Source: a virus. Taken from it: DNA of 64,000 nt. A model generated the notes under the pieces. The model had not been told where the DNA came from and ran no database searches. It was given only the letters and a program-made list of their open reading frames with translations. The DNA is taken from the IMG/VR virus record IMGVR_UViG_3300007512_002515, positions 114,345 to 178,344 of that record, one strand, 5' to 3'. The translations under genes and the position numbers were made by a program. Shown here piece after piece: positions 9,163 to 54,159 of this stretch; within the stretch, counting starts at the first letter, position 1, and each line of letters opens with the position of its first letter.

Positions 9163-9166
9163 TGAT

Positions 9167-11743: not shown

Positions 11744-12754
11744 ATGAAAGTAGCGCATATTGACTATATTTGGGTAGACGGGTTTGATGTACCATCAATT
11801 AGGTCAAAGACGAAGGTAGGTCCCATCACAACTAACGATGAGGGCCAATCCGCGATAGAAATAACACAGTGGAATTTTGATGGCTCATCGACCGGCCAGG
11901 CTTCGACGAGCGAGTCTGAAAGACTTCTAACACCTGTTCGTCTTTACCAGGTGTCACCAAGCCAGTACATGGTACTTTGTGAGGTGGAGGACGTTGATGG
12001 AACAGCACATTCTACAAACCATAGAGCTGTTCTGCGAGAGTATCTTACGGAAAATCCGACCAAAAATCTTTGGCTTGGTTTCGAACAAGAATATTTTTTA
12101 ACTGATAATAGAAGTAAGAATATGTTTTGGGCGGGTGAAGTAGAGCCGCCAAACACACCCATGTATTATTGTTCTTCTGGTGGGGACAGAGTGATGAAAC
12201 GAGGCTTAGTAAGAGCCCACGCTGATATTTGCTGGTCAATGGGAATTCAGGTTGTTGGATATAACGCTGAAGTCGCTCCAAGTCAATGGGAATTTCAATG
12301 TTTCGGTGAAGACACGCTAAAGGCATGTGATGATTTATGGGTTTCAAGATATATGTTGTCACTTCTCGCCGAGAACGATGGCGTTGGTGTCGATTGGTCC
12401 CCCAAGCCACATACAGGATGGAACGGCTCAGGTTGTCATACTAATTTTTCAACCGAGGAGATGCGGACAGGTACGGACAACGAGAAGTTGTATAATAGCA
12501 TTTTAGAAAAGATGTCCATGAACCATACCTCAACGATATCAGAATATGGCGAAGGGAATAATGATAGATTAGTGGGAGCGTATGAGACATCTAGTTTCGA
12601 GAAGTTTTCGTACGGCGTCGCCGACCGTAGTGCTTCTGTTAGGATTCCCACATCGACAGTCGACAACGAGTGGAAAGGGTATTTAGAGGACCGACGACCT
12701 TCTTCAAATTGTGATCCGTACCGAGTCGCAAACCAATTAATAAGATTTGTGTGA
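11744..12754 (+). CDS. glnA: Glutamine synthetase, type II
   Basis: 336 aa, close to the ~350 aa of GSII rather than the ~470 aa of GSI. It makes glutamine from glutamate, ammonia and ATP. Visible: W-N-F-D-G-S-S-T-G-Q (GSII signature, about residues 44-53), W-L-G-F-E-Q-E-Y-F metal-ligand strand, N-A-E-V-A-P-S-Q-W-E-F-Q, the ATP-site-like K-P-H-T-G-W-N-G-S-G-C-H-T-N and the C-terminal R-R-P-S-S-N-C-D-P-Y. All core motifs look intact, so it should be active. It is preceded by TATAGGAGA. It is followed at 9 bases by malate synthase, forming a GS-aceB-aceA-ThyX run. Glutamine is the amide donor for nucleotide synthesis. Confidence 0.94.
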   Translation: MKVAHIDYIWVDGFDVPSIRSKTKVGPITTNDEGQSAIEITQWNFDGSSTGQASTSESERLLTPVRLYQVSPSQYMVLCEVEDVDGTAHSTNHRAVLREYLTENPTKNLWLGFEQEYFLTDNRSKNMFWAGEVEPPNTPMYYCSSGGDRVMKRGLVRAHADICWSMGIQVVGYNAEVAPSQWEFQCFGEDTLKACDDLWVSRYMLSLLAENDGVGVDWSPKPHTGWNGSGCHTNFSTEEMRTGTDNEKLYNSILEKMSMNHTSTISEYGEGNNDRLVGAYETSSFEKFSYGVADRSASVRIPTSTVDNEWKGYLEDRRPSSNCDPYRVANQLIRFV

Positions 12755-12763
12755 GGGAATGCT

Positions 12764-14308
12764 GTGTCGTTAAAATTTACTGTTGATTTAACCGAAGAGC
12801 AGGCGTCTGTATTGTCTCTTGATGTTATAACATTTTTAGACGCCTTATGTGAAGAGTTCAGTCTTACGATTGCTCATCTTCTGGATGAGCGTGGGGGATT
12901 TACACCTGGTTTTCTGGAAGAAACGAAGTGGATACGAGAAAGCCAGTGGAAGATTGCGGATTTCTCAAAAGACCTCGAAGACAGACGTGTCGAAATTACT
13001 GGTCCTCCCGATCGAAAAATGATAATCAACGCATTGAATTCCGGCGCGAATGTGTACATGGCAGACTTTGAGGACTCCAATTCTCCGACGTGGAGCAACT
13101 GTGTAAATGGCCAGATAAATTTGCGCGATGCGATTCATAACGAGATTGATTTTCATGATGAGAAAAGAGACAAAATGTACTCCCTCGGCTCCGAGCTAGC
13201 AGTGTTATTTGTTCGTCCCCGCGGACTTCATTTATCAGAGGGTCATGTGATTCATGATTTGTGGGATGCGCCAATTCCAGCAGCGCTCTTCGACTTTGGT
13301 GTTTACATTGCGAATAATATCACCACCCTTGTGGAGACCGGCCGCAGTCCCTATTTTTATCTTCCCAAATTAGAGCACCACAATGAAGCTGCTCTTTGGA
13401 ATAAGATTTTTTCATTTTCTGAAGAATATTTTGGCGTGAAGAATGGAGTTATTAAGGCAACTGTGTTGATTGAAACCCTTCCAGCGGCATTTCAAATGGA
13501 CGAGATATTATACGAATTGCGAGAGCATTCAGTTGGGTTGAATTGCGGTCGGTGGGACTATATTTTTAGTTTCATAAAAACATTTCGAAATGACCCAAAG
13601 TATATTGTTCCTGATCGAGATGAAGTGGGTATGACGCAACATTTTATGCAGTCCTACTCGAGACTCTTAATACAAACATGTCACCGCCGGGGAGCGCATG
13701 CGATGGGCGGTATGGCTGCTCAGATACCTATAAAGAACGACCCTGTAGCGAACTCAACCGCGATTAGAAAGGTAGAGCAAGACAAGATTCGGGAAGTAAT
13801 GGATGGACATGACGGCACATGGGTAGCGCATCCAGGATTAGTGGCAATCGCAAAAAAAGTTTTCGATGAATATCTTATCACGCCCAACCAAATTAACAGA
13901 CCTCTATCAAATATTGAGATATCAACTGAAGACTTGGTGGAAGTTCCTGTAGGATCTTTCACAGAGGAAATGTTAAGAAAAAATATAAAAATTGGATATG
14001 AATATATGAAGGCCTGGGTTGCGGGGTCTGGGTGCGTGCCTCTTAACAATTTAATGGAAGACGCCGCCACTGCTGAGATATCTCGTGCACAGACCTGGCA
14101 GTGGTTGCGGCATAACGTAATGCTTGATAACGGAGCTGTTGTGACGCAAGAGTATTTAGGCGCACTGTTTCAGGAAGAATTGATTGGTGAGTGCGGAGTA
14201 GCGTATGATCTATGGCACATATTGTGCTTTCAAAATAATATGGATGAGTTTTTAACACTACAAGCCTATAATAGCTTGGAATTAAATGGAAAATTGGAGA
14301 TTCTCTGA
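12764..14308 (+). CDS. aceB: Malate synthase A
   Basis: 514 aa, GTG start after GAGGGA, near the ~530 aa of bacterial malate synthase A. It condenses glyoxylate with acetyl-CoA to malate. Recognisable are [18 protein letters not shown] (residues ~78-95), [14 protein letters not shown] (acidic metal site), R-P-R-G-L-H, a Y-L-P-K-L-E-H-H segment, [11 protein letters not shown] and G-L-N-C-G-R-W-D-Y. The stop overlaps the isocitrate lyase ATG by one base, as in bacterial aceBA operons. No truncation is seen. Confidence 0.95.
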
Positions 14309-15546
14309 TGACAGCTAATAATCGATGGGACGGAATTACCCGCCCTTACTCCGCTGAGCAGGTAGATAAATTACGCGGCTCATTTCGTGAAAACTATGGT
14401 TTCGCAACACACGTTGCAACAAAGCTTTGGAACCAATTATGCTCTGAGCCCTACGTTCATGCAATGGGAGCTGTGACTGGAAATCAAGCGATGCAGATGG
14501 TCAAGGCCGGTACACCCTCGATTTATTGCTCTGGATGGCAAGTCGCCGCCGACGCGAATGATTCTCATTCCATGTACCCGGACCAAAGTTTATATGCGGT
14601 AAACAGTGTTCCAATGCTTATTGAAAAAATAAATAATGCTCTTCGTCGTGCCGACCAGGTCGAATGGATTGAAAATTGCGGGTCAATAAGAGACTGGTTC
14701 GCACCGATTGTTGCAGATGCAGAAGCAGGTTTCGGTGGAAACCTCAATGCGTTTGAATTGATGCAAGCAATGATTCGCGCCGGCGCAGCAGGGGTGCATT
14801 TTGAAGACCAGTTATCTTCGGCCAAGAAGTGTGGTCATTTAGGCGGAAAAGTTCTTGTACCGACCAGCGAGTTTGTTAAGAAATTGATAGCTGCTCGGCT
14901 AGCAGCGGATGTGATGGATGTACCAACTATTTTAATTGCCCGTACCGATGCCGATTCAGCCCGTTTGATAACGTTAGATGTTGATCCTATAGACCAACAA
15001 TTTATTACATCAAATGAACGAACCGCAGAAGGATTTTATCATATCACTGGCGGGATAGATATGGCCATATCTCGAGGCTTGGCGTATGCGCCGTATGCCG
15101 ACCTTCTTTGGTGCGAAACCAGCACGCCTGATTTAGCAGAGGCGCAAAAATTCGCTGACGCTATACATGAAAAATTTCCCGGTAAGATGCTGGCGTATAA
15201 TTGTTCACCTTCTTTTAACTGGCGCGCGAACCTCGATGATGAAACTATTGCAAAGTTTCAAAATTCTTTGGGGGAAATGGGTTACAAATTTCAGTTTATC
15301 ACCTTGGCTGGTTTTCATTGCTTGAATTATTCAATGTTCAATTTAGCGCTGGATTACAATAAGCGAGATATGTCTGCATACGCCGAACTTCAAGCTGCTG
15401 AATTTGCCGCTGAAGATATTGGATATACTGCTACAAAGCACCAACGTGAAGTAGGAACAGGATATTTCGACGCAGTTGCACAAACGATATCGTCAGATTC
15501 ATCGACTTTAGCTTTAAAAGAGTCCACCGAAGCTGAGCAATTTTAG
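14308..15546 (+). CDS. aceA: Isocitrate lyase
   Basis: 412 aa, a little shorter than the ~430 aa of bacterial enzymes. It cleaves isocitrate to succinate and glyoxylate. The catalytic signature K-K-C-G-H-L-G-G-K is intact at residues 173-181, together with S-G-W-Q-V-A-A-D, metal-site [16 protein letters not shown] and the C-terminal lid region Y-N-C-S-P-S-F-N-W. It overlaps malate synthase by one base and ThyX by one base, so the three should be co-expressed. It supplies both glyoxylate for malate synthase and succinate. Confidence 0.95.
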
Positions 15547-16253
15547 TGAGTAGAATTGAATTATATGATGACAAGATAGGCGTTGTTGAATACGTTTCCC
15601 ATATGGGAGAAGACATTACAGTTGTTAATAGCGCCAGGGTTTCTTTTGGGAAACATAAGGATGTAATGGATGACAAAGATAGAAAGCTTATTAAGTATCT
15701 TATCAAACATAAGCATACGTCAACACTCGAACACTGTGTTATAACATATCGGTTCATAGTACCCCTTTTCGTTCGAAGCCAGCATCACCGTCATCGAACA
15801 TGGAGCTATAACGAGATATCACGTCGTTATACTGACGAGAATCTCCGGTTTTATGAGCCAGCAAGTTTCAGAACGCAGCATAAATCCAATCGACAAGCTT
15901 CAAATATTAATGAGCTAAGGGACCCTGTAGTGATACCAGACCTTTCGGATACGGATTATGGTATGACTGCATCTCAAGTTGTCAGTGATCATCACCGACG
16001 TTCTGTAATGTTATACAACGATCTTCTCAGGGTAGGTGTATGCCGCGAACAGGCTCGAGGTGTTCTCTCCCAAAACCTGTACACTGAGTATTACGGAACT
16101 GTCAATTTAAACAATCTTTTAAAGTTTGTTTCGCTTCGAACCCATGACGGTGCCCAATGGGAGATTCAACAAGTAGCAAAAGCTTGTTTAGAAATTGCTA
16201 AAAATTGCTGGCCAGAAACAATAGAAGCCTATCAAGAATTAACATCATCTTGA
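15546..16253 (+). CDS. thyX: FAD-dependent thymidylate synthase
   Basis: 235 aa, GTG start overlapping the isocitrate lyase stop. It makes dTMP from dUMP with flavin chemistry. The family motif RHR(x)nS is present as R-H-R-T-W-S (82-87), continuing Y-N-E-I-S-R-R-Y. The later dUMP-contact region is R-E-Q-A-R-G-V-L-S-Q-N. It supplies thymidylate, which frees the ThyA-fold enzyme at 23041 for a different reaction. Confidence 0.94.
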   Translation: MSRIELYDDKIGVVEYVSHMGEDITVVNSARVSFGKHKDVMDDKDRKLIKYLIKHKHTSTLEHCVITYRFIVPLFVRSQHHRHRTWSYNEISRRYTDENLRFYEPASFRTQHKSNRQASNINELRDPVVIPDLSDTDYGMTASQVVSDHHRRSVMLYNDLLRVGVCREQARGVLSQNLYTEYYGTVNLNNLLKFVSLRTHDGAQWEIQQVAKACLEIAKNCWPETIEAYQELTSS

Positions 16254-17022: not shown

Positions 17023-17256
17023 ATGAACACTAATGAACTAAAAATGAATGATGATGCAATCAATCATCTCGCAAAGCTTCTGCAAATGGCTATTTTAACT
17101 GGTACTGATATTATGGACAATCTTCGTTCTGCTACATTTGTTGTACACAACGATGAGCTTCATATCCATCCAGATTATCATGAAGCGTTTGAGCAGAATA
17201 TTCAAAATATGATGTCTGCCTTGGCAACTGAAGAAGAAGTTGAAGAAGTTGAGTGA
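17023..17256 (+). CDS. Small acidic protein of unknown function
   Basis: 77 aa, start after GGAGG. Predicted helical, with H-N-D-E-L-H-I-H-P-D-Y-H in the middle and an E/V-rich end. No family is recognised. It overlaps the next (NTP pyrophosphatase-like) gene by 17 bases, suggesting translational coupling. Confidence 0.65.
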   Translation: MNTNELKMNDDAINHLAKLLQMAILTGTDIMDNLRSATFVVHNDELHIHPDYHEAFEQNIQNMMSALATEEEVEEVE

Positions 17257-17623
17257 CAAATTAGACCAAATGTTCGCCCGGCGGACAGCGTTTATGACAC
17301 GCTTAAAGGGAAAGAAGCCAGCTGAGTATCCAGATTGGCCGATCGATTTGTCAGATAAACGAAACCAACAGCACGTAAGAGATATGGCTCTAAGGGGTGT
17401 TGAGGAAATGTTCGAGGCATTGCAGCATCTCAAAAACTGGAAACCGCATAGAGACACAGAGGTTCATGAATTTGATAGAAGCGAATTTTTGGAGGAGGTT
17501 GTTGATGCGTTTAACTACTTTATGTCAGTACTTGTCTTGACTGGAGTCGATGCTGAAGAGCTTTTTAGCGCGTACTGTGAAAAAGACCAGATAATTCATG
17601 ATCGGTTGGATGAGGGTTATTGA
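17240..17623 (+). CDS. All-alpha NTP pyrophosphatase (dUTPase/dCTPase or MazG-like)
   Basis: 127 aa. The metal-binding helices typical of all-alpha NTP pyrophosphatases are visible: R-G-V-E-E-M-F-E-A-L-Q-H (E-E..E) and F-L-E-E-V-V-D-A-F-N-Y-F (E..D..N). The family includes dimeric dUTPases, MazG and T4 gp56 (dCTPase/dUTPase). If the ThyA-fold enzyme at 23041 makes hydroxymethyl-dCMP, a gp56-like activity here would clear dCTP and dUTP and supply dCMP. That role is inference. Substrate cannot be read from sequence. Confidence 0.65.
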   Translation: MKKLSDKLDQMFARRTAFMTRLKGKKPAEYPDWPIDLSDKRNQQHVRDMALRGVEEMFEALQHLKNWKPHRDTEVHEFDRSEFLEEVVDAFNYFMSVLVLTGVDAEELFSAYCEKDQIIHDRLDEGY

Positions 17624-19397: not shown

Positions 19398-22300
19398 ATG
19401 CGAAAGACGAAACTAATCCCACCCAGTAAATTTATCTCCCTTCATTCACATGACGGGTTTTCTACTTTTGACGGTTTGGGGTACCCACAAGAACACATCG
19501 ATTTTGTTATTGAGAATGGCATGGATGGATGGTGTCTTACTAATCATGGTCATATGAATTCTTTTGGTCATGCATTTCTCCATGCAGAAAAAGTTCAAAA
19601 GCGCGGTGGTTCGTTTAAGTTCGTTCCAGGCTGTGAAATGTATGTGCATCCTGACCTTGAAGTATGGCAGCTCGATTACGAAATTAGGCAAGCAGCAAAG
19701 AAGGGTGACAAGGAGGCTATGTTCGCTCTTAGAGAGCGTCGTGAAGCAATAACAACTCCTCTTACTGCGATCATTGATGGCGATGATGAGATTGTTGATA
19801 TAGGCAAAGAAGACGCTGGCCTCACTGTAGAAAATGAAGAGGAAACCAAGTCTGGGAAATTTTATGATCCAGTAAAGCGTCGTCATCATCTTGTGGTTTT
19901 GCCAAAGACGAGTGAAGGTCTCCAGCGCTTGTTTCATCTCGTAAGTAGAGGTTACAGAGAGGGCTTCTATAGGTTCCCCCGTGTAGACTATAGGATGTTA
20001 AGGGAAGCCGCCCAGGGTGGCCATCTGATGATTTCTACAGCATGTATCGGCGGTCCTATTGCTTATGAGGTGTTTCGACATGCTCAACAGATAGAATTTG
20101 ATGATTTAAAGCATACTTTACTTGACGATCCTTCATTTCACCGTAATGTGATGACAGGAGTTGGGAACGCGTACCAAGGTCTTGTTGATGCGGTTGGAAT
20201 GGATGATGTACATCTAGAGCTTCAATTTAACAAGCTTCCTGCACAACACCTTGTTAATCGTGCGATTATTGAATTTGCAAACAACAATGGTCTAAATGAT
20301 AAGCTTGTCGTTACAACGGATTCACATTATGCTCGTCCTGAGCATTGGCGGGAGCGTGAACTTTACAAGAAGTTGGGGTGGTTAAATTATCGTGAATTCG
20401 ACCCATCTAAGTTGCCACAATCAAGAGATGACTTGAAATGTGAACTCTATCCCAAGAATGCACATCAGGTTTGGGACACATATCTTGAGTCAGCCGATGG
20501 CATGGATTTTTATGATGATCAAATAGTAAAAGATGCGATCGAACGGCCCCATGGGATAGTACATGAGGGTATTCAAGACATTGCCCCTGACCGCACTATG
20601 AAGCTCCCATCTTACGTTGTCCCCGAAGGACAAACTGATGATAAGGCGCTTCTTGAGGCTTGTAAAAAGGGGCTTATTGAACGCGGCTTTGCAAGCGACC
20701 CGAAGTATATTGAGCGCTTGAAGTATGAGTTGAAAGTTATCAAAGACAAGAAGTTTTCTCGATACTTTTTGACCATGACGGCAATCATTAACATCGCAAG
20801 AAAAGCAATGTTGGTCGGTCCTGGCCGAGGCTCCGCCGCCGGCAGTCTTGTTGCGTATGTGCTTCGACTAACAGACGTAGATCCTTTTGAGTACGACTTA
20901 ATGTTCGAGAGATTTTTGAACCCTTCTCGAAAAGGCGCCCCTGATATTGATACCGACGTCGGTGACCGCGATCTTTTGATTCAATTAATGAAAGATGAAT
21001 GGGGTGATGAAAATATCATTCCTATTTCGAACTACAACACCTTTAAGCTAAAATCACTTGTTAAGGATATTTCTCGTTTTTATGGAATTCCATTTCACGA
21101 AGTAAATAAGGCATTGTCCACCGTCGATCAAGACGTACGGCGAGCTGTTTTTAAGCCGGGTACTGATAAGAACCTGTTTGTCCTTTTGTACGAAGACGCG
21201 CTAGCACATTCGTCGAAGTTTCGGACATTCATTGAAAAACATCCAGAAGTAGCAGAGCCTATCCAGGTTTTGTTTAAGCAGAACAAGGCCTTGGGTCGAC
21301 ATGCTGGTGGGTGTATTGTAGCAGAGAATATTTCCGAAAGAATGCCACTAATCAAAGCCCGAGGAGAGCTTCAAACTCCATGGGCCGAAGGGATGAACTA
21401 CAAACATCTTGAAACATTCGGGTGGATTAAGTTTGATCTTCTCGGCCTTGAGACACTACGGATTATCCAAAGAACGATTGAGCTTATCCTTCAACGAAAG
21501 GAGGGTATCGAAGAGCCTACATTCGAGCAGGTTTCGGAGTGGTTTGAGACTCACATGAATCCCAAGATTTTAGATTTGAATGACCAGCATGTTTATGAGC
21601 ATGTTTATGCTGAAGGTCGGTTCCCGGGTGTGTTTCAGTTGGCTAATCGAGGCTCTAGAAATCTCTTTAAGAAAGCCAAGCCAAAGAGCATTGTTGATAT
21701 TGCAACACTGACGTCGATTTATCGTCCTGGTCCACTAACTGCAAAAGTTGATAGACACTACATTAAGGCAAAGAACAATCCGGGCAGTGTGGATTATGGT
21801 CATCCGCTGATTAAAGAAGTTCTTGAAGAAACATATGGGATGATTGTTTTTCAAGAGCAAATCATGCAATTGTGCTCTGTGGTCGCTGGTTTCCCAGAAG
21901 AAGAAACCGACACTGTGCGTCGTAGTATTATGAAGAGAAAGGCATCGGAAGCAGAGGAGTCTTTGGCTCAGGCCAGAGCGATTAAGGAACAGTTCGTTGC
22001 AGGTGCTGTAGGGAATGGTGTCGATCGACAGTTGGCAGACGACCTTTACGAGAAGATTTTGTACTTCTCTGGCTATGGATTCAATAAGGCACATGCTGTT
22101 TCATATGCTATTGACTCTTACTACTGTGCTTGGCTGTTGACGTATTACGAGGAAGAGTGGCTTTGCGCTTATCTAGAAGCTATGTCTGGTAATGATAAAA
22201 AGCGAGCTAAGGCTTTTGCTGAAGTTAAGGCTCTCGGTTATCGGGTTGCTCCAATTGATATCAATTATGCAACCAAGAAGTGGACAATTCTTGAGGGGAA

Positions 22301-23006
22301 AAAGTTCATGCCATCTCTTCTTTCATGTAAGGGCATCGGTGCAGCAGCTATCGACGAGCTTGTAGCTAATCGTCCTTACCAGAAAATTGATGATTTGCTC
22401 TGGACAGAAGACGGAAAATGGAAGCACTCTAAATTTAATAAACGCGCAATGGAGGCGCTGATTAACATTCGTGCATTCGAATCAATGAACCTTATCGGCA
22501 GCGAGTTTGAGTCTTATAAACATATGCATGAAGTCTTGATTGGTAAGAATAACGATATTAAAAAATGGACTAAAAAGGATGCTGATCGCGGAAGAAGAAA
22601 TTATCGAGAAGCATTGTTAGAAACGCAAGGTTGCGGAGACTGGTCTCGCAGAGAGCGTGTCGAGAACAGCGTAAAGCACTTCGGCTCGTTTAACGCATCC
22701 ACCCTAATTTCAGACGAAGTACAAGATAAGTTAACAGAAATGAATATCCATCCTATCGATGCGATTAATGGGCATGATTTGTATTGGTTTCTCGTGTCTG
22801 AGGTGAAGCCAAAGATGACAAAGAATAATCGCCCATATTTGCTCGTTACAGCCACAGCATTGTCAGGTCAAACATACCGAATGTTTTGCTGGGGATGGGA
22901 TGGAGAGACAGAGCTACCACTTTACAGCCTTTGTGTCGCAGAAGTAAAAAAGAACGACTTTGGGTATCAAACGTCAATGAAAAAAGTAAAATTGCTACAA
23001 ATGTGA
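19398..23006 (+). CDS. dnaE: DNA polymerase III alpha subunit (DnaE-type)
   Basis: 1202 aa, close to the full length of bacterial DnaE. The N-terminal PHP domain shows F-I-S-L-H-S-H-D-G-F and L-T-N-H-G-H. The palm has G-P-G-R-G-S-A-A-G-S-L and the catalytic P-D-I-D-T-D-V. The fingers and thumb are complete, with Y-R-P-G-P and G-F-N-K-A-H-A-V-S-Y. A helix-hairpin-helix L-S-C-K-G-I-G-A-A-A-I-D-E-L and a C-terminal OB-like region (about 1130-1190) follow. An unusual acidic insert lies in the PHP region near residues 130-155. Its coexistence with a Pol A gene at 1-381 is notable. It has its own promoter. Confidence 0.93.
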   Translation: MRKTKLIPPSKFISLHSHDGFSTFDGLGYPQEHIDFVIENGMDGWCLTNHGHMNSFGHAFLHAEKVQKRGGSFKFVPGCEMYVHPDLEVWQLDYEIRQAAKKGDKEAMFALRERREAITTPLTAIIDGDDEIVDIGKEDAGLTVENEEETKSGKFYDPVKRRHHLVVLPKTSEGLQRLFHLVSRGYREGFYRFPRVDYRMLREAAQGGHLMISTACIGGPIAYEVFRHAQQIEFDDLKHTLLDDPSFHRNVMTGVGNAYQGLVDAVGMDDVHLELQFNKLPAQHLVNRAIIEFANNNGLNDKLVVTTDSHYARPEHWRERELYKKLGWLNYREFDPSKLPQSRDDLKCELYPKNAHQVWDTYLESADGMDFYDDQIVKDAIERPHGIVHEGIQDIAPDRTMKLPSYVVPEGQTDDKALLEACKKGLIERGFASDPKYIERLKYELKVIKDKKFSRYFLTMTAIINIARKAMLVGPGRGSAAGSLVAYVLRLTDVDPFEYDLMFERFLNPSRKGAPDIDTDVGDRDLLIQLMKDEWGDENIIPISNYNTFKLKSLVKDISRFYGIPFHEVNKALSTVDQDVRRAVFKPGTDKNLFVLLYEDALAHSSKFRTFIEKHPEVAEPIQVLFKQNKALGRHAGGCIVAENISERMPLIKARGELQTPWAEGMNYKHLETFGWIKFDLLGLETLRIIQRTIELILQRKEGIEEPTFEQVSEWFETHMNPKILDLNDQHVYEHVYAEGRFPGVFQLANRGSRNLFKKAKPKSIVDIATLTSIYRPGPLTAKVDRHYIKAKNNPGSVDYGHPLIKEVLEETYGMIVFQEQIMQLCSVVAGFPEEETDTVRRSIMKRKASEAEESLAQARAIKEQFVAGAVGNGVDRQLADDLYEKILYFSGYGFNKAHAVSYAIDSYYCAWLLTYYEEEWLCAYLEAMSGNDKKRAKAFAEVKALGYRVAPIDINYATKKWTILEGKKFMPSLLSCKGIGAAAIDELVANRPYQKIDDLLWTEDGKWKHSKFNKRAMEALINIRAFESMNLIGSEFESYKHMHEVLIGKNNDIKKWTKKDADRGRRNYREALLETQGCGDWSRRERVENSVKHFGSFNASTLISDEVQDKLTEMNIHPIDAINGHDLYWFLVSEVKPKMTKNNRPYLLVTATALSGQTYRMFCWGWDGETELPLYSLCVAEVKKNDFGYQTSMKKVKLLQM

Positions 23007-23012
23007 TAAAAT
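23004..23012 (+). promoter_or_regulatory. Possible extended -10 (TGA-TAAAAT)
   Basis: TGATAAAAT overlaps the dnaE stop, 29 bases before the TTG start of the next gene. No -35 is evident, so it is weak evidence for a separate promoter of the modification block. Confidence 0.3.
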
Positions 23013-23040
23013 AAACTGACTAAAGGTTATGGAGTAAGAA

Positions 23041-24069
23041 TTGTACGCAGGAAGTTTCGAGAGTTTTACTGAATGTTATATTGAGTTGATTAAAGAGGTC
23101 TATAACAATCCGACCTATATGTCAGCTCCTCGTGGGCAAAAGATTAAAGAAAAACTGGGTGTTTCATTTACAATCGAGAACCCCAGAGATCGAATTCCGT
23201 ATGTTGCGGGTCGAAAATTTAGTATTTCTTATATGGTCGCTGAGCTATTGTGGTACCTTTCAGCCAATAATAAGACTGAGTGGATTTCAAGGTATTCGGC
23301 TTTCTGGAAAGATATTAGTGATGATGGTGTAACTGCAAACTCTGCTTATGGTGCCCGCTTGTTTGAGAAGCACCCCAAGATTGCCGATGGCCGTTATAGA
23401 CAGTGGCAATATGTTGTAAATGAGCTTAATCGTGATAGAGATTCTAGAAGAGCCGTGATGCACCTACGTGTTCCAGCTGATAGTATCGATGCTCGGCTTG
23501 ATGTTCCCTGTACTTTATCACTTCAATTTTTTATTCGTGATGAAAAGCTCCACATGATTGTGAATATGCGCAGTTCTGACCTTATTTTTGGGATTGCTTA
23601 TGATATACCTGCATTTACACTTTTCCAGGAAATTTTAGCTGAGCAACTGGAAGTCGGCCTCGGTTCTTATACACACATGAGTAATTCTCTTCATATTTAC
23701 GAGCGGCATTTCGAGATGGTCGAAGGTATTTTGGCCAGAGAAAATCGTACTCTTAAACTTCACGAAACTCATGGTCCAATGCCTCCACTCGGATCATTGA
23801 ATTGTAAGCAGTGGGTTCTTGAAGGGTGGATTGAGACACTAATGAAAGCTGAAGATCATATTAGCAGCTTAACTAGCCCGATAGAAATTCAGCAAGCATT
23901 TAATACTCATTTCATATCGACAGAAGAAGCTGACAACGTTTGGTCAGACTGGGCCAGGGTCTTGGCCGCACACAGATTAAGAAAGCTTGGCTTTACTGAA
24001 GATGCGAACCGTGTTCAAAACCAGACGGCATTTTCTGGTTATTCATTCAACATTAAAAAAGAGGGATAG
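23041..24069 (+). CDS. ThyA-fold enzyme, probable dCMP hydroxymethylase
   Basis: 342 aa, rare TTG start; the GGAG site at 23031 and an in-frame stop just upstream fix it. The ThyA/hydroxymethylase fold is clear: catalytic Cys157 in D-V-P-C-T and dUMP/dCMP-phosphate region R-S-S-D-L-I-F-G (177-184). The key base-reading position is I-A-Y-D-I, where thymidylate synthase has L-P-F-N-I. That Asn-to-Asp change (Asp188) is the one that gives T4 gp42 its preference for dCMP. ThyX is present, so a second thymidylate synthase is not needed. I infer 5-hydroxymethyl-dCMP synthesis. The C-terminal ~90 residues are an extension. It heads a sugar-nucleotide gene block. Confidence 0.75.
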   Translation: MYAGSFESFTECYIELIKEVYNNPTYMSAPRGQKIKEKLGVSFTIENPRDRIPYVAGRKFSISYMVAELLWYLSANNKTEWISRYSAFWKDISDDGVTANSAYGARLFEKHPKIADGRYRQWQYVVNELNRDRDSRRAVMHLRVPADSIDARLDVPCTLSLQFFIRDEKLHMIVNMRSSDLIFGIAYDIPAFTLFQEILAEQLEVGLGSYTHMSNSLHIYERHFEMVEGILARENRTLKLHETHGPMPPLGSLNCKQWVLEGWIETLMKAEDHISSLTSPIEIQQAFNTHFISTEEADNVWSDWARVLAAHRLRKLGFTEDANRVQNQTAFSGYSFNIKKEG

Positions 24070-24071
24070 AA

Positions 24072-25196
24072 GTGACAAATTACGATTATCTTATTGTCGG
24101 CGCCGGACTTTTTGGTGCAACTTTTGCGAGGGAAATGACAGATGCTGGAAAAAAGTGCCTTGTTATTGACAAGCGTCCGCATATTGGCGGAAACGTTTAT
24201 TCAGAAAATAGGAATGGAGTTGATGTGCATGTATACGGAGCTCATATTTTTCATACTAGTAGTGATCGTATTTGGGAGTATGTAAATCGATTTGCAACAT
24301 TCAACAATTACGTCAATAAACCAAAGGTCAGGTTTGGCGATAGGATTTTTTCTTTTCCTATTAATTTAATGACGCTACACCAGCTTTGGGGTGTGATGAC
24401 ACCTGCGGAAGCCGAGGCAAAGCTTAAGGAAGTTCGTATTCCATGCGAGAATCCAGATAATTTAGAGGACTGGATCTTATCTCAAGTTGGTCGTGAAGTA
24501 TATGAGACATTCATTCGTGGATACACAATGAAGCAATGGCAAAGGGATCCTCGAGAGCTACCTGCATCAATCATTAAGCGACTTCCCATTCGTATGGTTT
24601 TCGAGGAGAATTATTTCTTTGACAAGTATCAAGGGATTCCTGTCAAAGGGTATACAGAGATGGTCAATAATATGCTTGAGGATATTACGGTCATGACCGG
24701 CATGGATTACTTCGCACAACGTGAACACTTCAATTCTTTAGCGGAAACAGTCGTATTTACTGGGAAGGTGGATGAGTATTTTGATTTTTGCCATGGTGAA
24801 CTAGAGTATAGAACTCTCCGATTTGAGCATGAAGAGCTCGAAGGGGATTTCCAGGGAAATGCAGTTGTGAACTATACCTCACCAGACATTCCCTTCACTC
24901 GAATCGTTGAGCACAAACATTTTCTACCGTCTACCGCAAGCAAGTTGCCTAATACTATTGTTACACGAGAATATTCTGACGAGTATAAGCGAGGAAAGAC
25001 GCCGTATTATCCCATTAACAATGATCGAAATAACATGATGTATAAGAAATATGCAGCGATGGCCGCCGCGGAAGATGATGTAATTTTTGGTGGTAGGTTG
25101 GCAGAGTACAAATATTATGATATGCATCAAGTTATTGGTTCTGCGCTTGTAAAAGCCAAGCGAGAGCTCAATAATCAATCAATGGAGAAAGAATGA
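24072..25196 (+). CDS. glf: UDP-galactopyranose mutase
   Basis: 374 aa, GTG start, typical length. The FAD-binding start D-Y-L-I-V-G-A-G-L-F-G-A-T-F-A is followed by I-G-G-N-V-Y-S and Y-G-A-H-I-F-H-T, family hallmarks. Later G-Y-T-M-K-Q-W and Y-Y-P-I-N-N-D-R contribute to the substrate pocket. It interconverts UDP-galactopyranose and UDP-galactofuranose; relatives also act on UDP-arabinopyranose. A GalE-like epimerase at 27004 could supply UDP-Gal. The position right after the hydroxymethylase suggests sugar donation to modified DNA rather than cell-wall synthesis. Confidence 0.92.
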   Translation: MTNYDYLIVGAGLFGATFAREMTDAGKKCLVIDKRPHIGGNVYSENRNGVDVHVYGAHIFHTSSDRIWEYVNRFATFNNYVNKPKVRFGDRIFSFPINLMTLHQLWGVMTPAEAEAKLKEVRIPCENPDNLEDWILSQVGREVYETFIRGYTMKQWQRDPRELPASIIKRLPIRMVFEENYFFDKYQGIPVKGYTEMVNNMLEDITVMTGMDYFAQREHFNSLAETVVFTGKVDEYFDFCHGELEYRTLRFEHEELEGDFQGNAVVNYTSPDIPFTRIVEHKHFLPSTASKLPNTIVTREYSDEYKRGKTPYYPINNDRNNMMYKKYAAMAAAEDDVIFGGRLAEYKYYDMHQVIGSALVKAKRELNNQSMEKE

Positions 25197-25399
25197 GCCG
25201 TATTAATAGAGGCCGCCGCCGCAAAGAAGAACTTCGTGAAGTAGTAGAAGAAAATACAAAGGAACGTGCTAAACGATCGCCACAGCAGCAATTGGATTTG
25301 CTTGATGAAAGACTTGGCATCGGAATCGGAGCAGTTCGCGAACGAAAGCACTTACAGAAACTTTTAGCAAATAGTAAAAATAAAAAGGACAAAAAATGA
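25193..25399 (+). CDS. Small basic helical protein
   Basis: 68 aa, overlapping genes on both sides by 4 bases. It is Arg/Lys/Glu-rich throughout, with R-G-R-R-R-K near the start and K-N-K-K-D-K-K at the end. The middle L-D-E-R-L-G-I-G-I-G-A-V-R-E-R is the only non-charged patch. It might bind nucleic acid, but no family is recognised. Confidence 0.65.
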   Translation: MSRINRGRRRKEELREVVEENTKERAKRSPQQQLDLLDERLGIGIGAVRERKHLQKLLANSKNKKDKK

Positions 25400-26451
25400 G
25401 AGTACTTTACAGCTTTTGGGGATTTATTACCCCTCTTGAGAAAAACAGCATTGTCGACACACCTGATGGTGAACGAGGAAATCGAGTTGACTGGGTAAAC
25501 GAACTATTAAAGCGCGGTCATACACCAATTCAGCTTCAAAAGATGCGTGATGACGAGCAGTATCTGGGGGTTGAGTATGACGACTCTGGTTTCCCTGATG
25601 GCGATATTCTTTATGTAGAGTGGCGCTGGCCGACCTGGAAGAATTCCGGTCAGAATCCTGTTGAGTCTGATTATAATCGCCAATGCGAAGTACTTGACTA
25701 TTACCATGAACAAGGAATTCCCATTGTGATAGTTGACGGTGATTTGAAGATGACGCCTGAGGAAGAGTTGCGCTGGCCAGATGCCATCTTAGCAGATGCA
25801 TGTGTCGACCCCCAGCACCAAACTCGTAAGCGTATTACAATTCCCTGGTGCAATTATATGAAGCGATACTTCGATCCAGTAGAATATTCGTACAATTATA
25901 CATACGTCGGTAACAATTACGAACGTGAATATCAATTCGGGAAATACTATATTGACCCAAGCCGATATCTGAGAGAGGAGGGAATCCAGACTACGATTTA
26001 TGGAAATTGGCTTCAGAAATCGCCTGAAAGAGTTGATCCGGGAGAGCTCTTAGCCAAGACGCCTTGCGTTGCGTTTGGACCTCGCTTGGCATACAAAGAT
26101 ATTTTTAGTGTATTGAACTCTTCTATCACGGTAACTCACATTACAAAGGATGCGTATACTCCATTTGGCAACATCACAGGAAGATTTTTTGAGGCGATCA
26201 AAAGTAACGTTCCTGCGTTGATTCCAATTGAGTTTCGGCATGCATTACCTGTCGGGCTAAAGGGTGGCGCTCTTGTGGTTGAAACGGCAGATGATGTGAT
26301 CGATAAGGTGAAGTGGATTTCAACGTTAAGTGCCACAGAGCGAAAAGCGCTAGTCGACGAGCAAGAAGAAGCTCTACGTACTGTTATCGACCCTCGCCCT
26401 GAATATCGCACTGATCTTCTTGAACATATTGTGGGAGATTATCAAGCATGA
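25396..26451 (+). CDS. Glycosyltransferase-like protein (GT-B type)
   Basis: 351 aa. The C-terminal half has the pattern of GT-B enzymes: a strand-turn F-G-P-R-L-A-Y-K-D-I-F, then N-I-T-G-R-F-F-E-A-I-K-S-N-V-P-A-L-I-P, which parallels the 'RxxEa..~g.P.i' donor site. The N-terminal half begins M-R-V-L-Y-S-F-W-G-F, a first Rossmann strand. No close family is named, so it could be a DNA, protein or glycan transferase. Its neighbours (hydroxymethylase, UGM, nucleotide kinase, epimerase) make transfer of a sugar to hydroxymethylcytosine the best guess. Confidence 0.6.
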   Translation: MRVLYSFWGFITPLEKNSIVDTPDGERGNRVDWVNELLKRGHTPIQLQKMRDDEQYLGVEYDDSGFPDGDILYVEWRWPTWKNSGQNPVESDYNRQCEVLDYYHEQGIPIVIVDGDLKMTPEEELRWPDAILADACVDPQHQTRKRITIPWCNYMKRYFDPVEYSYNYTYVGNNYEREYQFGKYYIDPSRYLREEGIQTTIYGNWLQKSPERVDPGELLAKTPCVAFGPRLAYKDIFSVLNSSITVTHITKDAYTPFGNITGRFFEAIKSNVPALIPIEFRHALPVGLKGGALVVETADDVIDKVKWISTLSATERKALVDEQEEALRTVIDPRPEYRTDLLEHIVGDYQA

Positions 26452-27011
26452 AAGTTGCATTTATTGGTCCCGATATGACGGGGAAATCGAACATCGCTGC
26501 TGAGCTTTCGAAACAAACGGGCGTTCCAGTTTTTAAGAATTCTGGAGAGTGGAAAACGCAGTTAAACAGCTCGGAGTACTTTCTTAACCTACTGAGATTT
26601 GGTGGCCCATTTTTGATGGATTTCATCCGGCAAACAAACGTATCAGTCATCTTAGACCGTTTTTATCCTTGTGAGATGGTATATTCGCAAGCTTTCGGTC
26701 GAGAAACGGACGACACCGCATTAGCGTGGATGGACAAGAATTTCGCAGAGGTAGGCGGAAAGTTCATTATTTGCGTTCGGAATGACTATTCAGATTTGAT
26801 TGATGATCAATATCCTGAAGACCTGCCGCCAAATGTATTGGGTGCTTTAACTCTTCATTATCGAAAGTTTGCTAAATGGACAGGGTGTGAATGCTTGATT
26901 TTGGAAACAGATGATATGGACCTGAACAATCAGGTAAAAAAGATTAAAATGTTCTTAGGAATTAAGAATAGGGAAGATATGCAAGCGGAGGATTTTTGTA
27001 GTCATGCGTAA
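26448..27011 (+). CDS. P-loop deoxynucleotide kinase-like protein
   Basis: 187 aa, ATGA overlap. P-loop G-P-D-M-T-G-K-S (residues 7-14), then V-I-L-D-R-F-Y-P-C-E-M-V-Y, the D-R-[FY] element of thymidylate and deoxynucleoside kinases. A short lid region and a C-terminal I-L-E-T-D-D follow. It would phosphorylate a deoxynucleoside mono- or nucleoside substrate. In T4, gp1 kinase converts hydroxymethyl-dCMP to the diphosphate, and a gene in this position could do the same. The substrate is inferred. Confidence 0.7.
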   Translation: MKVAFIGPDMTGKSNIAAELSKQTGVPVFKNSGEWKTQLNSSEYFLNLLRFGGPFLMDFIRQTNVSVILDRFYPCEMVYSQAFGRETDDTALAWMDKNFAEVGGKFIICVRNDYSDLIDDQYPEDLPPNVLGALTLHYRKFAKWTGCECLILETDDMDLNNQVKKIKMFLGIKNREDMQAEDFCSHA

Positions 27012-27996
27012 AGCTTTAGTTACTGGCTGTTGTGGTTTTATTGGTGGACATCTTACTAGAATGTTAGTGAAAGATGGGTGGAATGTTGTTGGCGTCGACG
27101 ATCTTTCAAATGGTGATCCAGACGTCCTTCATGATATTGATATTCGATGTGTCCCACCGGCACTTCTCCCTGCCTATAACGGCGCGGAAGATGTAGACAA
27201 GACACTTATTATTACTGGTGATTTTGCAAATGAACATATTCTCATGAGAGCCGACCGCGGCGATTTTGATGTTATTTTTCATCTTGCCGCGAATCCACGG
27301 GTAGAGTATTCTGTAAAGAACCCTGCATCGACAACTCATACAAACGTCCAGAAGACGATTGAGCTAATGACTGCGGCCGTTGGAAAGATTGATCGATTTG
27401 TATTTGCTTCTTCTTCCGCAGTGTATGGTAACGGGGTTTCATTACCAACCAAAGAGTCTGAGTCAACAAATCCTCAATCTCCATACGCTCTACAGAAACT
27501 TGTAGTTGAGCAATTCGGTGAAATGTACAGTGAACTCTATGGCTTAGATTTTGTTGCATTGAGGTTTTTCAATGTATACGGCCCCGGACAGCTTGGGAGT
27601 TCTCCGTATTCTACTGCAATCGCCGCGTGGTGTGATAAGCTGAAGGCTGGAAAGCCCCTCCGAAGTGACGGGGACGGGGAGCAAAGTAGAGATATGGTTT
27701 ATGTTGAGGATGTCTCCAGGGCCCTTATTACGTGTGCAGAACGAAACAGCTCCTTTGGATTTGAAGTATATAACGTAGGCGCAGGTCAATCATTGACAAA
27801 TAATCAAATTTTGAATGGCCTTCGTGAATATTTTCCATCAATGGAAATCACGCATGCGCCTGAACGAACAGGAGACGTCAAGCATACTTTGGCTAACGTT
27901 AATAAGATTGAAACTGAAGTTCTATTTTCGGCAAAAGTACATTTTTGGCGAGGCTTACGAGACACCCTTTTATGGTGGGAGCTAATTGATGAATAA
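27004..27996 (+). CDS. NDP-sugar epimerase (GalE-like)
   Basis: 330 aa, GGAGG site, 8-base overlap with the kinase. Extended short-chain dehydrogenase: NAD loop G-C-C-G-F-I-G-G-H (8-16), V-D-D-L-S-N-G-D, catalytic S-S-S-A-V-Y-G and Y-A-L-Q-K (YxxxK), then R-F-F-N-V-Y-G-P-G-Q, all as in UDP-glucose 4-epimerase and close relatives. It would supply UDP-galactose (or another epimer) to the mutase at 24072. The exact sugar cannot be read. Confidence 0.88.
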   Translation: MRKALVTGCCGFIGGHLTRMLVKDGWNVVGVDDLSNGDPDVLHDIDIRCVPPALLPAYNGAEDVDKTLIITGDFANEHILMRADRGDFDVIFHLAANPRVEYSVKNPASTTHTNVQKTIELMTAAVGKIDRFVFASSSAVYGNGVSLPTKESESTNPQSPYALQKLVVEQFGEMYSELYGLDFVALRFFNVYGPGQLGSSPYSTAIAAWCDKLKAGKPLRSDGDGEQSRDMVYVEDVSRALITCAERNSSFGFEVYNVGAGQSLTNNQILNGLREYFPSMEITHAPERTGDVKHTLANVNKIETEVLFSAKVHFWRGLRDTLLWWELIDE

Positions 27997-28426
27997 AAAC
28001 GCATGGATTGGGAAGTCAACAGTATCGGAAAAACCCTGGGGTATAGAGACTGCATGGGCTGCTCTTCCTACGATCGCTGGAAAGAAGCTGGAAATCATGG
28101 AAGGAAAATGTACGAGTCTTAAATTTCATAAACATAAGAATGAAGTCTTATTTGTCGCGATGGGGAGCGTAAATGTTATATTCGCCTCAGAGCGCCACTT
28201 TATAGACCCGGTCCAGTATCCGTCAGAGAGTAGAGATTTGGTCCCTGGCCAACTACTGAATGTACAAGCTGGATGTCCATATCGAATATATGCAAAGAAA
28301 AATTCGATTGTGTATGAAATTTCTGACGGAACTACCTCAGACCAACCCGTGCGCTTAGAAGATGAATATGGTAGGGAAATCGATGCGAATCTTACTGATT
28401 ATCAGTTTACTTATCCTAAGGAGTAG
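27989..28426 (+). CDS. Cupin, mannose-6-phosphate isomerase type II-like
   Basis: 145 aa from the ATG at 27989, overlapping the epimerase stop. The cupin of type II phosphomannose isomerases is evident: K-P-W-G-I-E start, then S-L-K-F-H-K-H-K-N-E (metal His/Glu), a G-S-V-N-V strand, L-V-P-G-Q turn, and the C-terminal R-L-E-D-E-Y-G-R motif. It may isomerise or epimerise a sugar or sugar phosphate. Its placement extends the sugar-nucleotide block. The real substrate is unknown. Confidence 0.78.
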   Translation: MNKNAWIGKSTVSEKPWGIETAWAALPTIAGKKLEIMEGKCTSLKFHKHKNEVLFVAMGSVNVIFASERHFIDPVQYPSESRDLVPGQLLNVQAGCPYRIYAKKNSIVYEISDGTTSDQPVRLEDEYGREIDANLTDYQFTYPKE

Positions 28427-28447: not shown

Positions 28448-29287
28448 ATGAGTTCTTTAGACCCAAATTCGGTTGACGTGGTGATTTATCACGCAGACTG
28501 CACTGATGGTTTCGGTGCTGCGTATTCTGCATGGAAGTTGCTAGGAAATCGAGCTGAGTTTCATGCTTGTAAGCATGGTAACCCACCACCAAAGGTGAAG
28601 GGTAAGAACGTCGTTATTTTAGATTTTTCTTTTAGCAATGAAGTTACAAAAAAGATGATTAAGTCCGCCAAGAACTTACTGGTTATTGATCATCACAAGT
28701 CTGCGATGGTTGAGTTGCATGATATAACCAACACACATTTCGATATGACGAAATCGGGTGCAATACTTTCTTGGGAGTTCTTTCACCCAGGGAAGGAACC
28801 ACCAAAATTTATAAGGTATATCCAGGATAGAGATTTGTGGAAGTGGGAACTCGAGTATTCTAAAGAGTTTAGCGCGGCCTTCGATATGGTACCTTTTGAT
28901 TTTGAAGAATTTGAAAAATTTGAGGACGATTCAGTATTTGATGATGCAAGAAAACGCGGATCTTATATTTTGGCTTACTCAAAGACTGTTATCAAGAAAG
29001 TTTGTGAGAAAGCTGTCCCTCGTAAATATGAGGGAAAAGACATACTTGTTGTCAACGCTTCTCACTGGATGTCTGAGATCGGCGCACGCCTTTCTCCTGA
29101 TTGTGACTTTGCATTGATCTGGTATTGGGACCACGAAGATAAGGTCACCAAAGTCAGCTTACGCGCTTTCCATGAAACTATAGATGTGTCCGAAATTGCT
29201 AAAAAGTTCGGTGGCGGAGGGCACAAAAAGGCCGCCGGATTTACACTACCAAAGGAAACTCATGTCGAGGAACTTTTTGACTCTTAA
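28448..29287 (+). CDS. DHH/DHHA1 phosphoesterase
   Basis: 279 aa, CGGAGGA site. DHH motifs: Y-H-A-D-C-T-D-G-F-G (motif I), V-I-L-D-F-S, V-I-D-H-H-K-S (DHH box), and the C-terminal DHHA1 G-G-G-G-H-K-K-A-A-G-F. These enzymes hydrolyse phosphodiester bonds in short oligonucleotides, cyclic dinucleotides or pAp. Which one applies is not decidable here. Degradation of signalling cyclic nucleotides would be relevant in a phage, but that is speculation. Confidence 0.82.
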   Translation: MSSLDPNSVDVVIYHADCTDGFGAAYSAWKLLGNRAEFHACKHGNPPPKVKGKNVVILDFSFSNEVTKKMIKSAKNLLVIDHHKSAMVELHDITNTHFDMTKSGAILSWEFFHPGKEPPKFIRYIQDRDLWKWELEYSKEFSAAFDMVPFDFEEFEKFEDDSVFDDARKRGSYILAYSKTVIKKVCEKAVPRKYEGKDILVVNASHWMSEIGARLSPDCDFALIWYWDHEDKVTKVSLRAFHETIDVSEIAKKFGGGGHKKAAGFTLPKETHVEELFDS

Positions 29288-29864
29288 TAATGACCCAAAG
29301 TATGACATCATATATCTTGACCCACCCTGGGATTATAAGGGCCAGCTTCAGCATTCCAAACCAGGAATGGGTGATACAGGCGGCGCTCGTAAGCATTATA
29401 GCACTCTCAAACTGAATGATCTTAAGAAGTTTCCACTTCAAAAGATTATTTCGGAAGACGGCCTTGTTTTTATGTGGGTAACGAATCCACATCTGGACCA
29501 GGGTATTGAGCTCTTAAAAAGCTGGGGGTTAAAGTATTCAACGGTTGGATTTGTCTGGAATAAGATGAGGGTTAATCCAGGCTTTTATACGATGAGTCAG
29601 TGCGAGCTGTGTATCATTGGAAAGAATGGGAAGATCCCTCGACCTCGGGGAGCCAGAAATGTTCGGCAATATCTTGAGCATATGCGAGAGCAGCACAGCA
29701 AGAAGCCAGATGAGGCCCGAGAAAGGATCGAGCAAATGTTTCCAGACCAGTCTAAGGCTGAATTATTTGCAAGGCATCAGCACCCTGGATGGGCTGCATG
29801 GGGCCATGAAGTAGAGGGCGGCTGTGTCCGTCTGGAGGAATATCTGCGTGAACTTGGATGGTAG
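29262..29864 (+). CDS. MT-A70-family adenine methyltransferase
   Basis: 200 aa from the ATG at 29262 (AAAGGA before it); the longer frame from 29184 lies inside the DHH gene. The catalytic motif I-I-Y-L-D-P-P-W (DPPW) is followed by G-A-R-K-H-Y-S-T-L, V-F-M-W-V-T-N-P-H and G-F-V-W-N-K-M, which define MT-A70-like N6-adenine methyltransferases. It probably methylates phage DNA, adding to the presumed cytosine modification. The C-terminal E-R-I-E-Q-M-F-P segment is also typical. Confidence 0.88.
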   Translation: MSRNFLTLNNDPKYDIIYLDPPWDYKGQLQHSKPGMGDTGGARKHYSTLKLNDLKKFPLQKIISEDGLVFMWVTNPHLDQGIELLKSWGLKYSTVGFVWNKMRVNPGFYTMSQCELCIIGKNGKIPRPRGARNVRQYLEHMREQHSKKPDEARERIEQMFPDQSKAELFARHQHPGWAAWGHEVEGGCVRLEEYLRELGW

Positions 29865-30273
29865 ACCAGCATGGGACGAAATCTGGATGGATTTTGCGCA
29901 ATCTATAGCTCGCAGGAGCTATGATCCGCGTCATCAAGTGGGAGCAGTCGTAGTAACTGAAAGAAACACACAGGTGTTAGCAGTCGGCTACAACGGCAAT
30001 TATTCTGGTGGCCCTAATGAGGTGGAGTCGACAATTCCAGGCGAGTCCGGGATGATCCATGCAGAAATTAACGCTCTATTGAAGTGTGACTATAATAACG
30101 TATCTAAAAAGACAATGTACGTCACACTCAGCCCGTGTAGGATGTGTGCAAAAGCAATGGTGAATGGTGGTATTAAAGAAGTTGTTTATGATGATGAATA
30201 CAGAGATACATCTGGCCTGGATCTTCTACGAACGGCGGGAGTTGAAGTAAGGCGCCATTCAACCAAGAAATAG
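29848..30273 (+). CDS. Deoxycytidylate deaminase
   Basis: 141 aa from a GTG at 29848, chosen because GGAGG lies 9 bases before it; an in-frame GTG at 29824 is also possible. Zinc motif H-A-E-I-N-A-L and S-P-C-R-M-C-A-K, with an N-terminal R-R-S-Y-D-P-R-H-Q-V-G-A-V-V-V typical of dCMP deaminases (ComEB/T4 Cd type). It converts dCMP to dUMP, the ThyX substrate, and so sits at the branch between thymidylate and hydroxymethylcytosine. It overlaps the methylase gene by 17 bases. Confidence 0.88.
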   Translation: MNLDGRPAWDEIWMDFAQSIARRSYDPRHQVGAVVVTERNTQVLAVGYNGNYSGGPNEVESTIPGESGMIHAEINALLKCDYNNVSKKTMYVTLSPCRMCAKAMVNGGIKEVVYDDEYRDTSGLDLLRTAGVEVRRHSTKK

Positions 30274-54158: not shown

Positions 54159-54159
54159 T

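Follow-up and report, generated by a model that had tools for sequence, protein, structure and literature searches.

Why would a virus carry a gene for a UDP-galactopyranose mutase between a gene of the thymidylate synthase superfamily and a gene for a glycosyltransferase? The question is raised by six consecutive genes at positions 23,041 to 28,426 of the window, by which we mean the whole 64,000-nucleotide stretch analyzed here, the last 64 kb of the 178,344-base uncultured virus record IMGVR_UViG_3300007512_002515 (G000) from IMG/VR. A first-pass annotation, made from the letters alone, had named the products a ThyA-fold enzyme with a hydroxymethylase-type Asp, a UDP-galactopyranose mutase, a GT-B-like transferase, a dNMP-kinase-like protein, a GalE-like epimerase and a sugar cupin, and had read them as a candidate pathway for glycosylated 5-hydroxymethylcytosine (hmC) in DNA, possibly with a furanose sugar. 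All six open reading frames (ORFs), called below by their first positions, are present and open at their annotated coordinates (Table 1). Of the proposal built on them, hmC and its glycosyltransferase are strongly supported, and the furanose, supplied through the mutase, is suggested by recurrences of the same association in other phages.

Residue-level, profile, structural and synteny evidence makes a pathway for glycosylated hmC highly probable. The recurrent pairing of mutases with DNA glycosyltransferases makes a furanosyl sugar on hmC likely, and galactofuranose specifically is slightly favoured. Taken as a whole, T4-style cytosine hypermodification with a furanose branch, most likely giving galactofuranosyl-hmC, appears to us fairly probable. 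The grades given to glycosylated hmC, to a furanosyl sugar and to galactofuranose are judgements and were not computed.

A predicted dCMP hydroxymethylase

Hydroxymethylation in this superfamily has been linked to an acidic residue three positions before the catalytic Cys (Asp145), together with Ser94 and Tyr96 (PMC6400193), and the corresponding residues of 23041 are D154, S101 and Y103. The preference for cytosine has been traced to an Asp, and that for deoxyribose over ribose to a Ser and an Arg (PMC5175136). In 23041 the former is Asp188, which lies in RSSDLIFGIAYD at the site of Asn177 in E. coli thymidylate synthase and of Asp179 in the T4 enzyme and is retained in 32 of the 32 homologues examined, so that the hydroxymethylase-type Asp is borne out; the deoxy-preference residues are S178 and R136, where MilA has A176 and K133 instead. 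The signature residues of 23041 are E68, W89, S101, Y103, R136/R137, D154, C157, S178, D180 and D188. Profile scores against PDB entries were 222 bits for the CMP 5-hydroxymethylase MilA, 161 for T4 dCMP hydroxymethylase and at most 120 for all thymidylate synthases, and both thymidylate synthase equivalog scores fell far below their cut-offs (104 vs 327 bits and 78 vs 108 bits). A role as thymidylate synthase (ThyA) was rejected because Asp188 replaces Asn177 and both equivalog scores are under the cut-off; as ThyX (15546) is encoded alongside 23041 in the same phage, the ThyA-fold enzyme is not required for dTMP synthesis.

The enzymes making 5-hydroxy-dCMP (RB69), 5-methyl-dCMP (Xp12) or hydroxymethyl-dUMP all belong to the same superfamily, and in the alignment 23041 shares 28% identity with both the RB69 protein and T4 gp42. 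That 23041 makes one of these other bases is nevertheless very improbable. RB69 ORF048c is without the folate-site Trp (89), Asp (180) and Gly (184) that 23041 keeps as W89, D180 and G184, and it has Thr/Glu where 23041 has Ser101/Asp154; this folate-site loss is an RB69-type feature as read from one sequence only, ORF048c, which is annotated as similar to dCMP hydroxymethylase and whose role as 5-hydroxy-dCMP synthase follows from that annotation. With all three folate-site residues kept, an RB69-type synthase was rejected for 23041, and Asp188 speaks against uracil as the base (PMC5175136). On its residues and profile matches, 23041 is thus very probably a dCMP hydroxymethylase.

A glycosyltransferase tied to hydroxymethylase genes

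Pfam and PHROGs are near-silent on 25396, with a weak Glyco_trans_1_2 match, and more sensitive comparisons place it beside the T4 enzymes. A profile of 21 of its relatives, run against all PDB sequences, had T4 DNA beta-glucosyltransferase (BGT) as its sole significant match (6e-6), and hhalign of the family against seven BGT-type sequences gave 96.9% (1.6e-10), with R263/E266 falling on R269/E272 of BGT. The AlphaFold model (predicted local distance difference test score, pLDDT, 88; predicted template modelling score, pTM, 0.87) has a GT-B fold, as the first-pass annotation had supposed; 1bgt comes eighth among its PDB matches and has the best target-normalised TM-score of those listed, and both T4 DNA glucosyltransferases stand within the top 15 among other GT-B enzymes. 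Sequence and model together indicate a GT-B transferase related to T4 BGT.

The strongest argument for DNA as the acceptor of 25396 is its genetic linkage to the hydroxymethylase. An Asp-type hydroxymethylase lies within 6 kb at 34 of the 38 loci of the 25396 family, and two of the other four sit on cut or short contigs. The linkage extends to relatives at 27% identity (L228) and at 42-46% (L216-L224). The 26448-type kinase family adjoins the transferase in nearly all loci and lineages, and a P-loop gene does so even in relatives of 25-27% identity. Direct tblastn of 25396 against named phages gave no match, and all its known relatives are therefore from IMG/VR. In two contigs (L043, 8672-9994; L045, 7713-9017) an unrelated protein of 434-440 amino acids takes the transferase's place beside kinase, epimerase and hydroxymethylase; it has no match in Pfam or PHROG and for that reason is not called a glycosyltransferase here, and it is perhaps another DNA glycosyltransferase.

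The cluster itself is conserved. The order hydroxymethylase-mutase-transferase-kinase-epimerase-cupin is kept across the IMG/VR contigs of the clade, the first three genes occurring together in 18 contigs (about 11 distinct sequences, one contig ending after the transferase), with most genes 52-90% identical and the most divergent of the cupins 38%. DNA polymerase III alpha usually precedes the run, and the kinase, epimerase and cupin are usually followed by a DHH phosphoesterase and a dCMP deaminase, the latter (29824) being syntenic throughout the family. Since this synteny is kept across the clade, the cluster is not a chance arrangement.

These associations bear on whether the sugar genes might act on surface glycans of the host or the virion, unrelated to DNA. 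Polysaccharide clusters often contain members of the mutase, epimerase and cupin families, and the majority of phage mutases are encoded away from DNA modification genes, but the transferase is BGT-like and linked genetically to the hydroxymethylase, the kinase and the dCMP deaminase, and we saw no cluster gene for a membrane export, polymerase or lipid-linked step, which leaves such a role scarcely credible.

Sugar-nucleotide genes

The product of 24072 scored 367 bits against the UDP-galactopyranose mutase equivalog TIGR00031, over the cut-off of 304, its nearest PDB entry is E. coli Glf (1i8t, 422 bits), and its active-site residues are invariant. The first-pass name can be kept, and the enzyme is predicted to make UDP-galactofuranose (UDP-Galf). 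Its His61 is the same in E. coli Glf, and the chain of 4mo2 has Arg at this site, which may bear on the substrate of the mutase (UDP-galactopyranose, UDP-Galp, versus UDP-GalNAcp or UDP-Arap). For 27004 the top PDB matches are UDP-hexose 4-epimerase type short-chain dehydrogenases/reductases (SDRs), and Y161 and K165 are invariant; it scored under the GalE equivalog cut-off (149 vs 262 bits). It is a predicted 4-epimerase of UDP-hexoses, which would turn UDP-glucose (UDP-Glc) into UDP-Galp. The cupin 27986 had no significant PDB match; it is conserved across the clade and in the greater part of the sister clade.

Would the furanose be galactose? The same pathway could use arabinose or another non-galactose sugar, the mutase acting on UDP-arabinopyranose or similar. 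Phage cytosine arabinofuranosylation has been reported, to go by the title of He et al. 2026 as cited in PMC13390438, a UDP-galactopyranose mutase homologue may serve UDP-Araf synthesis in Campylobacter, according to the available part of the source (PMC10615251), and the RGP/UDP-arabinopyranose mutase family occurs in two related contigs described below. This alternative is nonetheless improbable here: searches yielded no UDP-glucose dehydrogenase in the 178 kb record and no RGP in this genome, on which ground a UDP-arabinose pathway of its own was rejected, the other SDRs found in it are Gmd, Fcl and HldD-like, none a UDP-xylose synthase, and 24072 is well above the galactopyranose mutase cut-off. 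With the dehydrogenase missing, a pentose route is less favoured than one that leads from UDP-Glc through UDP-Galp and on to UDP-Galf, unless UDP-arabinose comes from the host, as it still could.

A second sugar-nucleotide island lies at 20222-26789 of the record (L096, 222-6789), with genes for an HldE-like kinase, an HldD-like epimerase, Fcl and Gmd and with transketolase-like pieces (recognized by eye); two glycosyltransferase-looking genes follow it.

Mutases beside DNA glycosyltransferases in other phages

The case for a furanosyl donor comes from loci in other phages. In the cultured Lactobacillus phage ATCCB (MK504445), genes 0045-0047 encode in succession a hydroxymethylase, a BGT (PF09198, 9e-22) and a mutase. 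In L176 (6895-9122) a BGT-like gene and a UDP-galactopyranose mutase gene overlap by 4 bp, next to T4-type head genes (named by eye). A 300 kb phage, L059, has the order kinase-transferase-mutase-dCMP deaminase-hydroxymethylase, and its mutase (7490-9547) carries a C-terminal domain that matches phrog_842, the beta-glucosyl-HMC-alpha-glucosyltransferase of T-even phages (2.7e-5), and nothing by Pfam. The uncultured phages L227 and L229, distant relatives of the kinase-transferase cassette, have an RGP/GT75 gene with the DDD motif directly upstream of kinase and transferase (L227, 6248-7417, PF03214 1.8e-32; L229, 6205-7263, PF03214 1.7e-46), the L229 protein also matching the UDP-arabinopyranose mutase 8cid in PDB (5.8e-19); a search of both contigs for UDP-galactopyranose mutase found none. 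RGP/GT75 enzymes turn NDP-pyranoses into NDP-furanoses without flavin (PMC9937993), and they are rare, being found in 1 of 14 control genomes and in 2 of 23 contigs searched (L227 and L229 only). The presence of two non-homologous pyranose/furanose mutases beside one transferase family can hardly be accounted for if that family does not use furanosyl donors. In four phages of the T4 superfamily (Aeromonas Aes508, Sinorhizobium phiM9, Rhizobium RL38J1 and Agrobacterium Atu_ph04) no mutase is annotated beside a hydroxymethylase or BGT, and these were not counted as support although they have mutases; Aes508 has an Asp-type hydroxymethylase elsewhere in its genome.

Several results weigh against the proposal. 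Among 149 other viral UDP-galactopyranose mutase loci outside the clade, which served as controls, a hydroxymethylase was nearby at one and a BGT- or 25396-like gene at two. Mutases thus usually do other things, and the presence of a mutase alone was rejected as evidence. The hhalign match of 25396 covers the nucleotide-binding half only; its N-terminal half is not alignable to BGT and a Pfam search gave no match to PF09198 (T4-Gluco-transf, the N-terminal part), which is why the protein is described as BGT-related and not as BGT. Transferase and kinase persist in the sister clade (L021-L030), along with hydroxymethylase, epimerase and usually cupin where contigs reach far enough, with no mutase nearby; one of its eight contigs, several of which are fragments, has a mutase elsewhere, beside a GalE-like SDR. 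The transferases of this clade could transfer a pyranose. Finally, the second island at 20-27 kb indicates that the phage makes other sugars too.

One might accordingly suppose that 25396 adds glucose or galactose as a pyranose in the same hmC pathway, and that the mutase serves another role, e.g., in a surface glycan, and was placed here by chance. The sister clade, the many viral mutases outside DNA modification contexts and the use of UDP-glucose as donor by T4 BGT would all fit. We consider this unlikely, as the pairing of mutase and DNA glycosyltransferase recurs in unrelated phages, in one of them as a fusion, and a non-homologous mutase occupies the same place in L227 and L229. A furanosyl donor for 25396 therefore remains our preferred reading. 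A broader proposal stands at about even chances: that a phage DNA glycosyltransferase family is specialised for furanosyl donors, placing galactofuranose on hmC, and another furanose such as arabinofuranose in the RGP/GT75 relatives, and that enzymes for the pyranose-to-furanose step were taken in from two unrelated families in separate events, the mutase of one phage having become joined to a domain that resembles DNA glycosyltransferases.

A proposed pathway and its relatives

In the pathway that we propose, dCMP would be supplied by the dCTPase 17240 and by products of ribonucleotide reductase, and 23041 would convert it to 5-hydroxymethyl-dCMP. The kinase 26448 would begin its conversion to the triphosphate, which the phage Pol III polymerase would incorporate, with ThyX supplying dTMP. 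In the sugar branch, UDP-glucose would be epimerized to UDP-galactopyranose by 27004 and contracted to UDP-galactofuranose by the flavoenzyme 24072, and the BGT-like 25396 would transfer the furanosyl residue to the hydroxymethyl of hmC within the DNA. The product would be furanosyl-hmC DNA, most likely galactofuranosyl-hmC, and the genome might in this way be shielded from restriction and CRISPR nucleases.

The first-pass parallel between 26448 and T4 gp1 holds for the fold, the predicted structure being nearest to SPbeta YorR and then to deoxynucleoside kinases (dNK) and thymidylate kinases (TMK), and fails for the sequence, where hhalign gave a probability of 1%; 26448 was thus rejected as a detectable gp1 homologue, and its substrate would be 5-hm-dCMP if the pathway is as proposed. 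The dCTPase-like 17240 aligns with T4 gp56 over 70 columns of its C-terminal half (hhalign 91.6%, 8.1e-7, 34% identity) and is related to it. Together with the dCMP deaminase 29824 and ThyX 15546, it would complete the T4-style pathway, and the relevant genes thus reach past the six-gene cluster on both sides.

The sugars known on phage hmC are for the most part glucose and gentiobiose, and arabinose or another pentose is found on cytosine in a few phages. Like T4 (gp42, gp1, gp56, b-gt), this phage has a dCMP hydroxymethylase, a gp56-like dCTPase, a dCMP deaminase, a nucleotide kinase and a BGT-related transferase. Unlike T4, it has ThyX for Td, a kinase that is not gp1-like in sequence, and an added epimerase and pyranose/furanose mutase; T4 takes UDP-glucose from its host, whereas this phage has sugar genes of its own. 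In ATCCB, too, an Asp-type hydroxymethylase, a BGT (there T4-type) and a UDP-galactopyranose mutase are neighbours, but that phage is unrelated, its BGT belongs to PF09198 and its run is without epimerase or cupin; no report on its DNA modification was found in the literature searched.

Among cultured phages, relatives of the 23041 hydroxymethylase near DNA glucosyltransferases occur in VPE25, whose enzyme is 32% identical to 23041 in the alignment and lies near a BGT, and in phage G. Bisulfite and restriction tests showed that cytosines are modified in the Enterococcus phages VPE25 and VFW, and the same study drew attention to a second protein, with 28% identity to a galactofuranosyltransferase (PMC4999554); in contrast to the present cluster, VPE25 has no annotated mutase in the stretch examined, and its sugar was not named. 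RB69 and other Mosigvirus phages resemble our phage in making their own sugar donor and, in the available parts of the sources, in a sugar at cytosine C5 reported as furanose (PMC6024577, PMC13390438). They differ in that the sugar sits on 5-hydroxycytosine, with no methylene, through a 5-hydroxy-dCMP route (PMC13390438) that involves a divergent ThyA homologue and an unrelated sugar pathway, and no UDP-galactopyranose mutase is among the annotated genes of their module. Shewanella phage Thanatos, with pentose-cytosine, likewise encodes sugar activation for cytosine modification, but it uses a UDP-sugar pyrophosphorylase and its paper mentions no mutase (PMC12838424).

A furanose-modified phage DNA is still unusual, as the first-pass annotation had remarked, yet with the 2026 report of arabinofuranosylation cited above by title it is no longer without precedent. 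In the literature searched, which did not cover non-open papers, we found neither a description of DNA carrying galactofuranose nor one that gives a UDP-galactopyranose mutase a part in DNA modification. If the proposal is true, galactofuranosyl-hmC adds a hexofuranose to DNA chemistry and a new viral DNA coat against bacterial defences, presents a distinct substrate to type IV restriction enzymes, anti-phage DNA glycosylases and CRISPR nucleases, and explains why UDP-galactopyranose mutase stands beside DNA modification genes in some phages. As the arrangement recurs in Lactobacillus ATCCB, a phage in culture, the question is open to experiment.

Gene organization and other genes of the window

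Table 1. Genes of the cluster and associated nucleotide and DNA modification genes (window coordinates).
Feature	Coordinates	Strand	Evidence and predicted role
Predicted dCMP hydroxymethylase (ThyA superfamily)	23041..24069	+	Pfam Thymidylat_synt 6.8e-35; predicted product 5-hm-dCMP
UDP-galactopyranose mutase, flavin-dependent	24072..25196	+	GLF 7.6e-78; predicted product UDP-Galf
Putative GT-B glycosyltransferase, T4 beta-glucosyltransferase-like	25396..26451	+	weak Glyco_trans_1_2 only; predicted to glycosylate hmC in DNA
P-loop (deoxy)nucleotide kinase	26448..27011	+	weak AAA_28; predicted 5-hm-dCMP kinase
Predicted UDP-hexose 4-epimerase (SDR)	27004..27996	+	Epimerase 4.3e-50; predicted UDP-Glc to UDP-Galp
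Cupin protein	27986..28426	+	weak Cupin_1 match 0.0011
Putative dCTPase/dUTPase, T4 gp56 kind	17240..17623	+	dUTPase_2 over its cut-off; predicted dCTP removal
dCMP deaminase	29824..30273	+	phrog_174 1.4e-50; dCMP_cyt_deam_1 3.4e-23
ThyX, the phage's own dTMP synthase	15546..16253	+	Thy1 2.2e-46
DNA polymerase III alpha, directly upstream of cluster	19398..23006	+	by eye from sequence, and synteny in related contigs
MT-A70 family DNA N6-adenine methyltransferase	29268..29864	+	MT-A70 1.9e-25; phrog_359 2.7e-63

The spacing of the cluster is operon-like, with gaps of 2 bp between hydroxymethylase and mutase and of 199 bp between mutase and transferase, and with overlaps of 4, 8 and 11 bp between successive genes from the transferase onward. 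A scan for promoters and terminators gave counts close to the shuffled expectation. The MT-A70 methyltransferase, searched as a longer ORF starting at 29184, adds another DNA modification function to this gene run and is present within the conserved run in most contigs of the clade.

Elsewhere in the window, malate synthase and isocitrate lyase stand back to back (12764-15546) and amount to a full glyoxylate shunt in a phage; the matches listed for these genes in the phage collection are Salmonella- and E. coli-derived records, plus an isocitrate lyase-like protein in Phage C48C1. The phage also encodes a glutamine synthetase (11744-12754), a GroEL-type chaperonin (44874-46466) and a fatty-acid-hydroxylase family protein (49382-49972). 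A Tubulin/FtsZ-family GTPase is weakly matched (0.00012) on the minus strand at 54640-55869, adjoining genes for tRNA-Ala and transfer-messenger RNA (tmRNA). Many ORFs at 53295-54564 and 58367-62253 have a common N-terminal motif such as MKITKRQLRRIIREA, which is perhaps a targeting or cleavable leader.

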